A DNA stretch of 32,812 nucleotides from Candidatus Arthromitus sp. SFB-turkey. Lineage in GTDB: Bacteria > Bacillota > Clostridia > Clostridiales > Clostridiaceae. The notes beneath the pieces were generated by a model. The model was not told where the DNA came from. It made no database searches and was given only the letters and a program-made list of their open reading frames with translations. Both the position numbers and the translations under genes were made by a program. Below, one piece after another: positions 27,633 through 32,812 of the stretch. Each line of letters opens with the position of its first letter. The stretch's first letter is position 1. The stretch lies in assembly GCF_001655775.1 (NCBI RefSeq), contig NZ_LXFF01000014.1, positions 1 through 32,812 of the forward strand, in the 5' to 3' direction.

Positions 27633-28286
27633 TTAAATTTCATTATCTAAATAATATTTACCCTCACTTTTAAAATACATAACATCTTCACCAATTTCAA
27701 TATCTAAATTGTTTGATGTTAACTCTATGATATTTAATTTTATCTCTTCTAAATTATTTTTCTCACATCTAATTTCAAAAATCACTTTATCTTCATATTG
27801 AATATTTTTAACATCTATCTTATTTTCATTAAAAAAATATTGAATTTTACCTATTAAATCATAATTAACTTTTATTTTAATATTGTTTCCCAAAATCTTA
27901 TTAGCTATTTGAGAATTTTTTATAGCACCACTCGCGGATTTAACATAAGCTCTTGTTAAACCTCCAACGCCTAAAAGAGTTCCTCCAAAATATCTAGTAA
28001 CAACAACAACGATATCTTTTAAATCATTTTTCTTTATAACTTCTATTATTGGTATACCTGCTGTTCCTTGTGGTTCTCCATCATCTGTATATCTTTGAAT
28101 CATCATATCTTTACCGATTATATACCCATAGACATTATGTCTTGCATCACTATGTTTGTGTTTAATTTTATCTATAAAAATTTTTGCCTCATTTTCATTT
28201 TCAACACGTTTTGTATAACCAATAAAAACAGATTTCTTTTCTTCGAATTCATAAATGCCTTCTCTTAAAACAGTTTTATAATCCAA
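27633..28286 (-). CDS. yigZ: YigZ/IMPACT family protein
   Basis: A 217-residue protein with the N-terminal IMPACT domain (signatures KHKHSDARHNVYGYIIG, RYTDDGEPQGTAGIPI and TRYFGGTLLGVGGLTRAY) and a C-terminal ferredoxin-like domain. The eukaryotic homologue IMPACT/Yih1 regulates the translation-stress kinase Gcn2; the bacterial role is unclear, though the fold resembles domain IV of elongation factor G. The start is TTG at 28286, with GGAG 9 bases upstream and no suitable ATG. It follows hflX by 3 bases. Confidence 0.93.
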   Translation of the reverse strand: MDYKTVLREGIYEFEEKKSVFIGYTKRVENENEAKIFIDKIKHKHSDARHNVYGYIIGKDMMIQRYTDDGEPQGTAGIPIIEVIKKNDLKDIVVVVTRYFGGTLLGVGGLTRAYVKSASGAIKNSQIANKILGNNIKIKVNYDLIGKIQYFFNENKIDVKNIQYEDKVIFEIRCEKNNLEEIKLNIIELTSNNLDIEIGEDVMYFKSEGKYYLDNEI

Positions 28287-28289
28287 AAT

Positions 28290-30095
28290 CTATTTCTCCA
28301 AATCTTTAATTATATATTTTTCATATTTTTTAAAATCATCTTCAGGAACATCAAAATTTACAAAAGTACCATTATCTAAATGCTCCTCTTTTAGAACAAT
28401 GTAATTATTATAAATAGAATTTAAAATTGAATAATCACTATAAGGTATATTGACTGAAATATTTTTATTAGTAACATTCAATTTATTTTCTATACTCTCT
28501 AACAGCCCATCTATATTAATTTTTTCAATAGCTGAAATAAATATAGAATGAGTTCCATAATCAGCCTCTATTTTTGTTTTAATATCTTGAAACTCTGAGT
28601 CTTTTAATTTATCTATTTTATTAAATACCAAAATTTTATTTGGATTTTTTATCCCGATTTCTCCTAATACAAAATCTGTTGTTTCTATTTCTTCTTTCCA
28701 AGTCTTTGAAGAAATATCTACAACATGAATCAATAAATCACTATAAATAATTTCTTCGAGGGTAGACTTAAAAGCTTCAACCAAGTCATGCGGAAGCTTT
28801 TTTATAAAACCTACTGTATCTGTAAGAGAAATTATAGTTTTTTTAGGAAGAACAACTTTTCTTGTAGTTGTATCGAGTGTTGCAAATAACATATCAGCTT
28901 CAAATACAAATTTATCTTCTAAAACATTATCATTTGATATTGAATAAATATAATTTCTTAAAGTTGACTTACCTGCATTAGTATAACCAACTATAGACAC
29001 TTGAGGAATTTTATTTTTTATTCTGCATTCTCTTTGAACATTTCTTTCAGATTTAATAATTTTTAATTGTTCCTTTAAATAATCAATTCTATTTCTTATA
29101 TGTCTTCTGTCAGTTTCAAGTTTCTTTTCTCCTGGACCTCGTGTTCCAATTCCTCCACCTGTTCTATTTAAAACAAAACCAAGACCCTTTAATCTTGAAT
29201 ACCTATATTTTAATTGTGCAAGTTCAACTTGATATTTTGAAACTTTTGATTTTGCACGCCTAGCAAATATTTCTAAAATTAAATTTGTTCGATCAATAAC
29301 TTTAATTCCTGAAAATTCTTCTAAATTTCTAATTTGAGAAGGAGATAAATCTTCATCAAATATTAAAACATCCACATTTTTGTGATAAGTTGACTGTAAA
29401 ATTTCTTGAAGTTTTCCTTTTCCAATATAATAAGACTTATCAATTTTCTCTCGTTTTTGAAAAAACATATCACAAATATTAACGTTACAAGCAAAAGCCA
29501 ACTCTTTTAATTCTTCTAAACTTTCTTTAGAATCACATCCAATTAAAACTGTATTTTCATTTATTTCATTATCATAAATTTCAACTTTAAGATTTTTTTC
29601 AATCTCTTGAATAACTGAAAAAATATCAAAATTAAAATATTTCTGTTCTTCTTTAAAAATAATTTCAGTAAAATTATTCTGGTTATCAAAATTTAAAAAT
29701 CCAATTGAAAAACTTTTTAATAATTTTTCATTAGTAACATTGACTGCTGAAATTGCATCAAGTTTTAAATTTTTAAGGGAAGCTATATCGACATTTGACA
29801 AATTAGGAAATGAATTTAAATGAGTATGTACAACTCTATATCCACTTAATTTCTTTTTTTCATTTGAATCAATTTTAATTTCTGCATTCACATTTGTTCC
29901 GATTGAAATACTATGTACAATTCCAAGTCTTGATATAACCACACAAATCTCTTTATTTATCTTCAAACTTATTTCAGCAATTTTTTTTAAAACAAATTCA
30001 TCAATAATAAAATTTTTATTAACTTTAACGTCATATAAAAGTTCAAGTTCTTGTATATAAGATTTTTTTACACCATCTATCTCTCCGTATATCAA
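28290..30095 (-). CDS. hflX: HflX ribosome-associated GTPase with an N-terminal JAMM-like extension
   Basis: HflX splits stalled or stressed 70S ribosomes. At 601 residues it is about 180 longer than the B. subtilis or E. coli protein. The HflX core begins near residue 183 (VLIGCDSKESLEELKEL), with the glycine-rich GGGIGTRGPGEKKLETDRR (313-331), G1 GYTNAGKST (370-378), G3 DTVGF and G4 NKID. The N-terminal extension contains HTHLNSFPNLSNVD (90-103), an exact HxH-x7-SxxD JAMM pattern, with E49 placed like the JAMM catalytic Glu. The start is TTG at 30095, 7 bases after GAGG in a long anti-Shine-Dalgarno match (GAGGTGATC). It leads the hflX-yigZ-MazG-yebC operon and has a clear promoter. The HflX call is certain; the protease-like domain is inferred from motif reading. 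Confidence 0.95.
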   Translation of the reverse strand: MIYGEIDGVKKSYIQELELLYDVKVNKNFIIDEFVLKKIAEISLKINKEICVVISRLGIVHSISIGTNVNAEIKIDSNEKKKLSGYRVVHTHLNSFPNLSNVDIASLKNLKLDAISAVNVTNEKLLKSFSIGFLNFDNQNNFTEIIFKEEQKYFNFDIFSVIQEIEKNLKVEIYDNEINENTVLIGCDSKESLEELKELAFACNVNICDMFFQKREKIDKSYYIGKGKLQEILQSTYHKNVDVLIFDEDLSPSQIRNLEEFSGIKVIDRTNLILEIFARRAKSKVSKYQVELAQLKYRYSRLKGLGFVLNRTGGGIGTRGPGEKKLETDRRHIRNRIDYLKEQLKIIKSERNVQRECRIKNKIPQVSIVGYTNAGKSTLRNYIYSISNDNVLEDKFVFEADMLFATLDTTTRKVVLPKKTIISLTDTVGFIKKLPHDLVEAFKSTLEEIIYSDLLIHVVDISSKTWKEEIETTDFVLGEIGIKNPNKILVFNKIDKLKDSEFQDIKTKIEADYGTHSIFISAIEKINIDGLLESIENKLNVTNKNISVNIPYSDYSILNSIYNNYIVLKEEHLDNGTFVNFDVPEDDFKKYEKYIIKDLEK

Positions 30096-30576: not shown

Positions 30577-30628
30577 GTTACCAACATGATTTATTGAATT
30601 TAATACTTAACTATATAAATTTGGTAAC
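30577..30628. repeat. Spaced inverted repeat GTTACCAA/TTGGTAAC upstream of the PBP gene
   Basis: Exact 8-bp inverted arms at 30577-30584 and 30621-30628 are 44 bases apart centre to centre, about four helical turns. They lie 40-90 bases upstream of the start codon and could be paired operator half-sites or the base of a leader RNA stem. Confidence 0.7.
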
Positions 30629-30667
30629 CTTATCAAACAACAAGCAAGAATTTACTGGGAGGTATAT

Positions 30668-32812
30668 ATGTCAAACAATAATAACTCTGGTACTAGTTCA
30701 AATTCAAATAATAATAATAACGCAATTACTCCGAACCAGCCAAAAAACGAAAATGACAATAACAACAATAATAAAGTTAAGAATTTTTTTAAGGTATTTT
30801 TAATTTTTATATTAGTTATATCGTTGATAGGTATAGTTACAATTTCAGGATTTGTTTTCGCAATAGTTAAGACTTCCCCTCCATTAACAATAGAAGCTGT
30901 TACAGATTTAGATCAAGCTTCTCAGCTTTTTGATGCTAATGGTGAATTTATGGATGAAGTTTTAACGGCAGAAAAAAGATACGTTATATCATTAGATGAG
31001 ATGCCACTCACCTTACGTAATGCTTTCATAGCTATAGAAGACGAACGGTTTTATGAACATTCAGGTATAGATATACAACGTATAATAGGTGCAGTTTTAA
31101 CTGATATCAAAAAAATAATAAATAAAGAATCAGGACTTCATGGTGCATCTACAATAACTCAACAAGTTATAAAAAATAATATTTTGACAAATGAAGTATC
31201 AATAATAAGAAAAATTCGTGAAATTTATCTTACTTTAGAATTAGAAAAGCAAATGTCAAAAGATGAAATTCTCCAAGTTTATTTAAATACTATCTTCGTT
31301 GGTGGTAATGCTTATGGAGTAGAAGCAGGAGCACTTCAATATTTTTCCAAAAATGCAAGTGATTTAACTTTAGCTCAATCTGCTTTTTTGGCAGGATCTA
31401 CTCAACATCCAACAAAATACTATTCTAGTGCTGCTAACATTGAAGATAGTCAATTCTACAAAAATAGAACTTTAACTGTACTAAGTAAAATGTTAGAACT
31501 TGGATACATCACTCAAGAAGAACACAATAATGCTGTAAACGAAGTTAATAATGATCAAATTGGATTTAATATTAAAAGAATTAGTGATAGTTATAACTAT
31601 GAATGGTTTTCAAGACCTGTTGTTAAAGAACTTACCAAAGATTTAAAAGAAGTATATGGTTACACTGACGAAGAAATCAAATTACACTTAAGAAACGATG
31701 GACTTAAAATATATACAACTATGGATAAAGCTTTACAGGAACATTCACAATATATTTTAGACAACGCAACAAATTATATAAATCTTGGTGAATGGACTGA
31801 TGAAAATGGAATAAAACAACCTCAAATGTCATCCGTTGTAATTGATTTTAAAACTGGTCATGTAAAATCAATTATAGGTGGTAGAGGTGAACAAAGTGCT
31901 AATTCATATAACCGTGCAGCATCCGACAAGTTTTTAAGATCAATAGGATCTACAGCAAAACCTCTTACTGCATATACTCCTCTTATTGATTTAAAATTAG
32001 GTCACGCTGGAACAGGTGTTGAAGATTCTCCTTTATCAAAAGAACTTTCATCCAAATATGGTGGATGGAATCCAAGTAATGAAGTAAAAGGAAACTTTAT
32101 CGGATATACAAATGTTAGATATTCGCTGGAAAGATCAATAAATTTATCTGCTATAAAAATAACTGATCTAGTTGGTTTAGATAAGGCTTTAGAGTATGGT
32201 GAAAAATTTGGATTACATTATAACGAAAATTCCAAAACAAGTATTGCTACATTAGCCCTTGGTCAATTTAATAATGACCCTAATGATTTAGATGGAGGTA
32301 ATCCTCTAATATTAGCAGCTGCATATAGTGTATTTGCTAATGGAGGAATCCTAACAGAACCGATCACCTATACTCATGTAGTTGACAAAAATGGTAAAGT
32401 TATCTTAGAAAATATTCCAGAGAAAACACAAGTTGTTACTCCTGAAACTGCTTATATAATGTATGATTTATTAAAAGGACCTGTTGAAAGATATTCCTCT
32501 AGACCAGCTAAATTTGGGGATATACCTGTTGCAGGTAAGACAGGTACAACAGAAAATAATAAAGATTTATGGTTTGCTGGAATAACACCTTATATGGCTG
32601 GAGCTGTATGGATTGGTGCAGATAAACCTACAGAATTAAAAGACAAATGGGGAAATAAACCGTTTAGTGGATCTACTGCAAGTGCTTTATTTGGTAAAAT
32701 AATGTCCTTTGCACACGAATCTTTGCCACCAGTTGATATTCCTAGACCAGAAGATATAGTTTCTGCTAATATATGCAGTGTTTCTGGTTTATTAGCAACA
32801 TCATATTGTTAT
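30668..32812 (+). CDS. Class A penicillin-binding protein (bifunctional peptidoglycan synthase), 3' end outside the window
   Basis: A 1A-type peptidoglycan synthase with 715 residues visible. An Asn-rich cytoplasmic tail (1-38) is followed by a membrane anchor (about 40-67). The glycosyltransferase domain has the catalytic Glu in EDERFYEH (E124) and GASTITQQ. The transpeptidase domain has S428-TAK, S490-IN and K624-TGT, all intact, so both activities are expected. The start ATG has GGGAGG 5 bases upstream. The frame is open to the window edge, where NICSVSGLLAT marks the beginning of the C-terminal region. It is the only plus-strand gene here and stands opposite hflX. Confidence 0.95.
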   Translation, partial: MSNNNNSGTSSNSNNNNNAITPNQPKNENDNNNNNKVKNFFKVFLIFILVISLIGIVTISGFVFAIVKTSPPLTIEAVTDLDQASQLFDANGEFMDEVLTAEKRYVISLDEMPLTLRNAFIAIEDERFYEHSGIDIQRIIGAVLTDIKKIINKESGLHGASTITQQVIKNNILTNEVSIIRKIREIYLTLELEKQMSKDEILQVYLNTIFVGGNAYGVEAGALQYFSKNASDLTLAQSAFLAGSTQHPTKYYSSAANIEDSQFYKNRTLTVLSKMLELGYITQEEHNNAVNEVNNDQIGFNIKRISDSYNYEWFSRPVVKELTKDLKEVYGYTDEEIKLHLRNDGLKIYTTMDKALQEHSQYILDNATNYINLGEWTDENGIKQPQMSSVVIDFKTGHVKSIIGGRGEQSANSYNRAASDKFLRSIGSTAKPLTAYTPLIDLKLGHAGTGVEDSPLSKELSSKYGGWNPSNEVKGNFIGYTNVRYSLERSINLSAIKITDLVGLDKALEYGEKFGLHYNENSKTSIATLALGQFNNDPNDLDGGNPLILAAAYSVFANGGILTEPITYTHVVDKNGKVILENIPEKTQVVTPETAYIMYDLLKGPVERYSSRPAKFGDIPVAGKTGTTENNKDLWFAGITPYMAGAVWIGADKPTELKDKWGNKPFSGSTASALFGKIMSFAHESLPPVDIPRPEDIVSANICSVSGLLATSYCY

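Follow-up and report, generated by a model that had tools for sequence, protein, structure and literature searches.

A JAMM/MPN-like domain with a predicted zinc site fused to the ribosome-splitting GTPase HflX in Candidatus Arthromitus and its relatives

The DNA analysed here (the window) is a stretch of 32,812 nucleotides from contig NZ_LXFF01000014.1 of Candidatus Arthromitus sp. SFB-turkey. Its minus strand carries an hflX open reading frame (ORF) of 601 aa at positions 28290..30095. The frame begins with a TTG start codon (30093..30095, minus strand), and an AGGTGA, which reads as a Shine-Dalgarno-like sequence, lies directly 5' of it, a few bases upstream. The gene directly downstream of hflX (27633-28286, minus strand) encodes what we take to be a YigZ/IMPACT-family protein. 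The 80 named loci used for comparison are the best 80 of 154 scan matches and come nearly all from Clostridium; a YigZ-like gene was matched near hflX in at least 5 of them, and the pairing is not general. Upstream of hflX a divergent gene (30611-32812, plus strand) reads like a penicillin-binding protein.

The HflX core occupies residues 189-601 (28293..29531, minus strand) and comprises the N-terminal, middle, GTPase, and C-terminal regions. The Pfam families GTP-bdg_N, GTP-bdg_M, and MMR_HSR1 match over cut-off, and the NCBIfam model TIGR03156 (GTP_HflX) matches residues 189-539 with 443.9 bits against a cut-off of 216.75. With a core that includes the GTPase domain over the curated cut-off, the window protein is a member of the HflX family. 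To this it adds about 180 N-terminal residues that are outside the family model. They consist of a JAMM/MPN-like domain (residues 1-157; 29625..30095, minus strand), recognised from an AlphaFold2 model and its Foldseek and VIA-align matches, which span approximately residues 26-160, and of a linker (residues 158-188; 29532..29624, minus strand) that is modelled as a helix from 158 to 182, the end of which is of low confidence. Neither Pfam nor NCBIfam has a family that matches the first 180 or so residues over cut-off, and a PDB sequence search with the window domain returned one meaningless match (E 0.75).

JAMM proteins are defined by the motif EXnHS/THX7SXXD, in which the His pair and the Asp hold zinc, the Glu works with water, and the Ser is predicted to stabilise the intermediate (excerpts of PMC300881). 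The initial annotation had noticed HxH-x7-SxxD at residues 90-103 of HflX and a glutamate, E49, upstream, and both are present in the ORF. Residues 90-103 read HTHLNSFPNLSNVD (window 29828 down to 29787, minus strand) and contain the HTH-x7-S-xx-D core H90, T91, H92, S100, and D103 (29787..29828, minus strand). E49 (29949..29951, minus strand) lies beside a strand of the model at residues 50-55 and is the predicted general acid/base. The window HflX fits the published motif at every position, including the Thr between the histidines, which is the S/T of a definition stricter than HxH-x7-SxxD. By the roles given in those excerpts, H90, H92, and D103 are predicted zinc ligands and S100 is predicted to stabilise the intermediate. 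Across the window's open frames of at least 60 aa (16,211 residues in total) the pattern HxHx7SxxD is found a single time, and when the 183-aa N-terminus was shuffled 20,000 times it arose in 2 of the shuffles.

Conservation of these residues extends well beyond the window. E49, H90, T91, H92, S100, and D103, together with eleven other columns, are invariant in all 78 sequences of a set that joins the window with 77 named loci, and all 80 of the named loci carry the motif. In a set of 56 diverse aligned sequences, with a mean column identity of 35%, the only invariant columns are E49, G58, G66, H90, T91, H92, S100, and D103. Besides the window, this set holds four Clostridiaceae-level loci and, from L113-L180, 51 loci chosen by the pattern HxH-x7-9-[ST]xxD; 13 loci of that range without the pattern were left out, as were L125, L177, L179, and L180. 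The conservation of His, Ser, and Asp among the 56 is partly by choice because the rows were picked by that pattern, whereas that of E49, T91, G58, and G66, which were not used in choosing rows, is independent. The widest set comprises 116 loci (112 distinct stretches) picked by H[ST]H-x7-SxxD. Each of the 115 rows that span position 49 has Glu there, and the one remaining row is a piece of a frame-broken gene. At position 93, 106 of the 116 loci have Pro and 10 have Leu; the replacement of the usual Pro by Leu, to which the annotation drew attention, is thus real, yet the window shares it with other loci.

Among the relatives, an HflX-like match was found in 56 of 57 genomes, and the JAMM motif is intact in all 56 loci examined, from 52 genomes. 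The His, His, Ser, and Asp residues on which the proposal of a metalloprotease site was built therefore hold in close homologues, as does E49 in the widest set, and the loss that the annotation had named as refuting was not observed. The count of 56 loci excludes G030 and G048, in which a contig end truncates HflX, G055 and G056, in which the match covers only the HflX core, and G053, which gave no match. It also excludes the short second copies of G012, G016, G022, and G028, each paired with a long copy, for which the match begins behind the domain. Two long copies, both with the motif intact, are found in G005 (L215/L230), G014 (L006/L233), G015 (L020/L229), and G033 (L004/L228).

The fold of the domain was predicted twice. 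The AlphaFold2 model of the window domain (78 sequences) has a pLDDT of 86.8 and a pTM of 0.84. The first three rows of a Foldseek search against the PDB are the Pyrococcus JAMM1 protein, PfJAMM1 (E 4.2e-4, 9.2e-4, and 1.0e-3), and the next are an archaeal Rpn11 homologue and JAMM/MPN complexes (proteasome, COP9, BRISC), with some later rows unrelated. In VIA-align the same model gave PfJAMM1 with a Z of 6.8 (107 aligned, rmsd 3.3 A). Entries for BRCC36, Rpn11, AfJAMM, RadC, and AMSH are within Z 1 of it. Judged by their titles, all 50 rows listed are JAMM/MPN proteins or complexes containing them; here the EMC and eIF3 chains are presumed to be of MPN nature, and the identities of chains in large complexes are likewise our assumption. 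The second AlphaFold model, of the locus L049 from Clostridium carboxidivorans P7 (81 sequences, pLDDT 88.7), has RadC as its first Foldseek match (E 3.3e-3) and no PDB row at E <= 0.001. In VIA-align PfJAMM1 is at the top (Z 7.0, 108 aligned, rmsd 3.5), the first five rows are PfJAMM1, RadC, and AfJAMM, and rank 6 is taken by a cytidine deaminase, whose Z of 5.6 is level with that of most JAMM rows. As the initial annotation supposed, the predicted fold is thus JAB/MPN-like: JAMM/MPN structures lead in both models, with deaminases appearing from rank 6 in the second, at a Z of at most 7.0. Since a Z below 8 may stem from a shared arrangement, the fold evidence is moderate when taken by itself. 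The predicted fold and the residue pattern taken together are strong evidence.

Sequence profiles point in the same direction, with a family signal that emerges only when relatives are included; the window domain alone gives none. A family sequence profile matched AMSH-like Sst2 structures (E 5.4e-4) with the HTHP...S..D motif in register. In Pfam scans, Prok-JAB matched 48 of the 78 near members, with a best E of 0.0017. The chorismate mutase family matched 9 of the 78 with a best E of 5.9e-4, below the best Prok-JAB value, and other unrelated families, DUF3929 among them, also match single near members. Prok-JAB matched 32 of the 56 diverse members with an E of 4.9e-5, the best of that scan, and RadC (PF04002) gave weak matches in 19 (best E 0.00042). 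A Prok-JAB search of the genomes of 19 relatives found one HflX, in a 613-aa frame, whose score of 22.1 bits falls short of the cut-off (25). In profile-profile comparison with eight RadC sequences the diverse alignment reached a probability of 49%, with the Glu, HxH, Ser, and Asp in register; column-shuffled controls reached at most 1% (n=30), and the narrower Clostridiaceae profile only 12.8%. RadC is a bacterial JAMM fold whose Glu and His/His/Ser/Asp align with those of the window-type domain in this comparison. The RadC sequences compared read HNHPSG, with Asn between the histidines, where the window domain has Thr. We conclude that the N-terminal domain of the window HflX is almost certainly a JAMM domain.

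The distribution of the domain was surveyed in 398 sampled genomes of the phylum, which we take to be the Bacillota, the named relatives being nearly all Clostridium. The domain was found in 73 (E <= 0.001) and none was shown in 325. It shares a reading frame with an HflX core in all 73; one of these cores (L125) is cut short. The metal site is intact in 60 of the 73 and absent from 13. The 13 site-less loci (L151-L163) keep R56 and G58, and the two histidines are present in none. In a tree of HflX cores they fall into two groups apart from each other, one of 7 rows and one of 6 (2 changes); the simplest explanation is that the metal site was lost twice while the domain stayed. A passage from MPN+ to MPN- is the usual pattern of metal-site loss.

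Many genomes have HflX without the domain: HflX was matched at E <= 1e-40 in 118 of 149 sampled genomes, and many of the frames are approximately 410-450 aa. In the HflX-core tree the starred branches require a minimum of 5 changes to account for the intact form and of 4 to account for the short one, which means that the domain has been lost or gained several times. The tree has 93 rows, one of which, L179, is wrongly labelled short: its gene is frame-broken, and the motif survives in an upstream fragment. The deep forks of the tree are weak. In an assembly titled uncultured Fusobacteriaceae (L087) there is a JAMM-HflX domain with 46% identity to the query, which may reflect a transfer or a misnamed assembly. 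In G105, G144, and G179, HflX is found in very long open frames (740-830 aa) of one family; in G105 (L211) approximately 43 in-frame residues precede the core, and the extra length lies behind the core or is overhang.

HflX splits stalled ribosomes, according to the portions available of PMC4770234 and PMC9067457. Its N-terminal domain sits on the 50S subunit and sends a loop in the direction of the peptidyl transferase centre; an N-terminal extension of the mycobacterial HflX makes contact with uL16 and helix 38 and stretches as far as the junction of helices 69-71 (excerpts of PMC12493154). Like the window domain, the mycobacterial extension precedes the first HflX subdomain. It is short, 39-58 residues, with no enzyme domain mentioned in those excerpts, whereas the window HflX has approximately 180 residues with a JAMM site. 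A position of the JAMM domain near uL16, helix 38, and helices 69-71 is accordingly suggested only by analogy, because the mycobacterial extension is so short.

On this basis the window HflX may be a two-enzyme protein that joins a ribosome-splitting GTPase to an N-terminal JAMM-fold zinc hydrolase. The HflX core would bind the 50S subunit of a stalled ribosome and split the ribosome, as other HflX proteins do, and the JAMM domain, joined by a helix to the first HflX subdomain, would be held near the 50S intersubunit face. There zinc on H90, H92, and D103 would activate water, E49 would shuttle the proton, S100 would steady the intermediate, and an amide bond would be cut in a polypeptide exposed by splitting. 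If the domain is near the intersubunit face opened by splitting, a polypeptide exposed there would thus be the likeliest target. The best candidate would be the stalled nascent chain or the peptide of a peptidyl-tRNA, and failing this the tail of a ribosomal or ribosome-bound protein. The domain is probably an active metal enzyme that binds zinc and catalyses hydrolysis. That it acts as a ribosome-tethered zinc peptidase, placed on the 50S and cutting polypeptide exposed by splitting, is a tentative reading to which we give a nearly even chance. The presence of the domain in one frame with the HflX core in each of the 73 domain-bearing phylum genomes argues that its work is tied to that of HflX. 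The cut would not be needed for HflX function in general, since in 325 of the 398 phylum genomes the domain was not found.

The surroundings of hflX and the content of the genomes were searched for clues to a substrate. Within flanks of up to 3 kb at the 80 named loci, an hpt-like gene is a neighbour at at least 67, and a divergent penicillin-binding protein-like gene is upstream at at least 63, often with the hpt-like gene between. A nucleotidyltransferase-like neighbour is found at at least 59, a secretion/sporulation-like protein at at least 57, and a transcription regulator-like protein at at least 47; the names come from reading the translations and, with some loci incomplete, these counts are lower bounds. 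No substrate-suggesting or translation-linked gene was found in these flanks. Matches to Prp, the protease known for cutting the bL27 tail, are present in the window genome, in its two genus mates, and in 33 of 54 relatives. The bL27 tail was set aside as a substrate after JAMM-HflX was found in genomes with and without a Prp match, in no pattern. RqcH-type NFACT proteins do not discriminate because they are matched in 53 of the 54 relatives.

The domain could instead have no catalytic role and assist the docking of HflX as an MPN module that binds zinc or a protein. The precedents are eIF3f and eIF3h, subunits of a eukaryotic initiation factor complex, which place an MPN domain on the translation machinery as JAMM-HflX would, and are not known to be fused to a GTPase. 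An eIF3 model chain is at rank 49 of the structural matches of the first model. Two separate clades keep the domain without its histidines, so the fold is useful without metal, and because 13 of the 73 genomes retain it in this form the domain has some non-catalytic use too. As the whole explanation we consider docking unlikely, since the catalytic set is invariant in the majority and includes Glu49, which is no zinc ligand and which a merely structural site does not need. Of the eukaryotic subunits, eIF3f is reported to have deubiquitinase activity (part of PMC2990700).

The placement of the domain on the ribosome rests on analogy, and this leaves room for a zinc peptidase whose work is unrelated to the ribosome: it would trim HflX itself or a free peptide, with HflX as its carrier or regulated partner. 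We judge this improbable, because a fusion to HflX in 73 of 73 domain-bearing genomes favours a shared site of action.

A different kind of substrate is suggested by the archaeal relatives. The window domain has the motif EXnHTHX7SXXD and the predicted fold in common with Prok-JAB and archaeal JAMM1 proteins (PfJAMM1, AfJAMM), and it might, like archaeal JAMM1 and some Prok-JAB proteins, remove a ubiquitin-like or sulfur-carrier tag of the ThiS/MoaD type from ribosome-linked proteins. PfJAMM1, the closest structure to the first model by both aligners, has also been solved with the ubiquitin-like SAMP2, and ThiF-family proteins are present in 54 of 54 relatives. The single ThiF match of the window genome presumably resembles the common tRNA-cyclising TcdA type. 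ThiS (PF02597) is matched in 31 of the 54 relatives and not in the other 23, which include the window genome and its two genus mates; a ThiS/MoaD partner in the window genome was sought by PF02597 only. An intact JAMM-HflX is present in 21 of these 23 (the other two are G053 and G030). Three of the 21 are less than 85% complete, and ThiS is short, such that a distant ubiquitin-like protein could be missed. A ThiS-type substrate is nevertheless less likely because the 21 genomes with an intact domain have no ThiS match, and this sets them apart from the Prok-JAB and archaeal JAMM1 proteins, as does the fusion to a ribosome GTPase in all 73 domain-bearing genomes. The window domain also differs from Prok-JAB in that Pfam does not detect it and detects its relatives weakly. 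Tag removal therefore has, in our estimate, a small probability.

Last and very improbable is that the motif arose by chance, which its rarity among shuffles, a conservation far beyond chance, and its retention in 60 of the 73 domain-bearing phylum genomes lead us to reject, or that the fold is not JAMM, for example a cytidine-deaminase type: nine deaminase rows (Z 5.1 to 5.6, best rank 6) are listed for the second model and one deaminase is at rank 43 of the Foldseek list of the first, but JAMM-type proteins hold the leading rows of both models, the 50 VIA-align rows of the first are free of deaminases, and the conserved residues fit the JAMM motif, from which the deaminase motif differs.

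Within the open-access literature searched, no description was found of HflX joined to JAMM, JAB, or MPN in the text available, and a search for HflX with RadC returned only matter unrelated by title. The accessible parts of Iyer 2006 (PMC1779556) hold no JAMM-HflX fusion under GTPase, ribosome, or Hfl, and those of the HflXr paper (PMC6310831) hold none either. The available text of a 2025 review notes HflX extensions in 'several Clostridium spp.', names no domain, and calls the variation of HflX between species an open question (PMC12493154). The suspicion voiced at the outset, that the fusion is common and overlooked, agrees with these searches within their limits: 73 of 398 phylum genomes have it, it is unannotated, and it was not found described. 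The component families are known, and HflX with an intact JAMM domain is new within the literature searched.

JAMM-type zinc proteases cut ubiquitin tags off proteins in human cells, and to our knowledge no zinc-dependent proteolytic step has been described in bacterial ribosome rescue. The domain gives a name to a stretch that is blank in Pfam and NCBIfam in what are probably many database proteins. The two site-less clades and the many genomes with a domain-less HflX provide natural controls. It is possible, if rather doubtful, that many Bacillota use HflX to split the stalled ribosome and its JAMM domain to sever, on the 50S subunit, the trapped nascent chain or a ribosomal tail. If so, ribosome rescue in many Bacillota, Clostridium included, would have a covalent cutting step, and the fusion would be the bacterial counterpart of the MPN subunits that eukaryotes have on their translation machinery.
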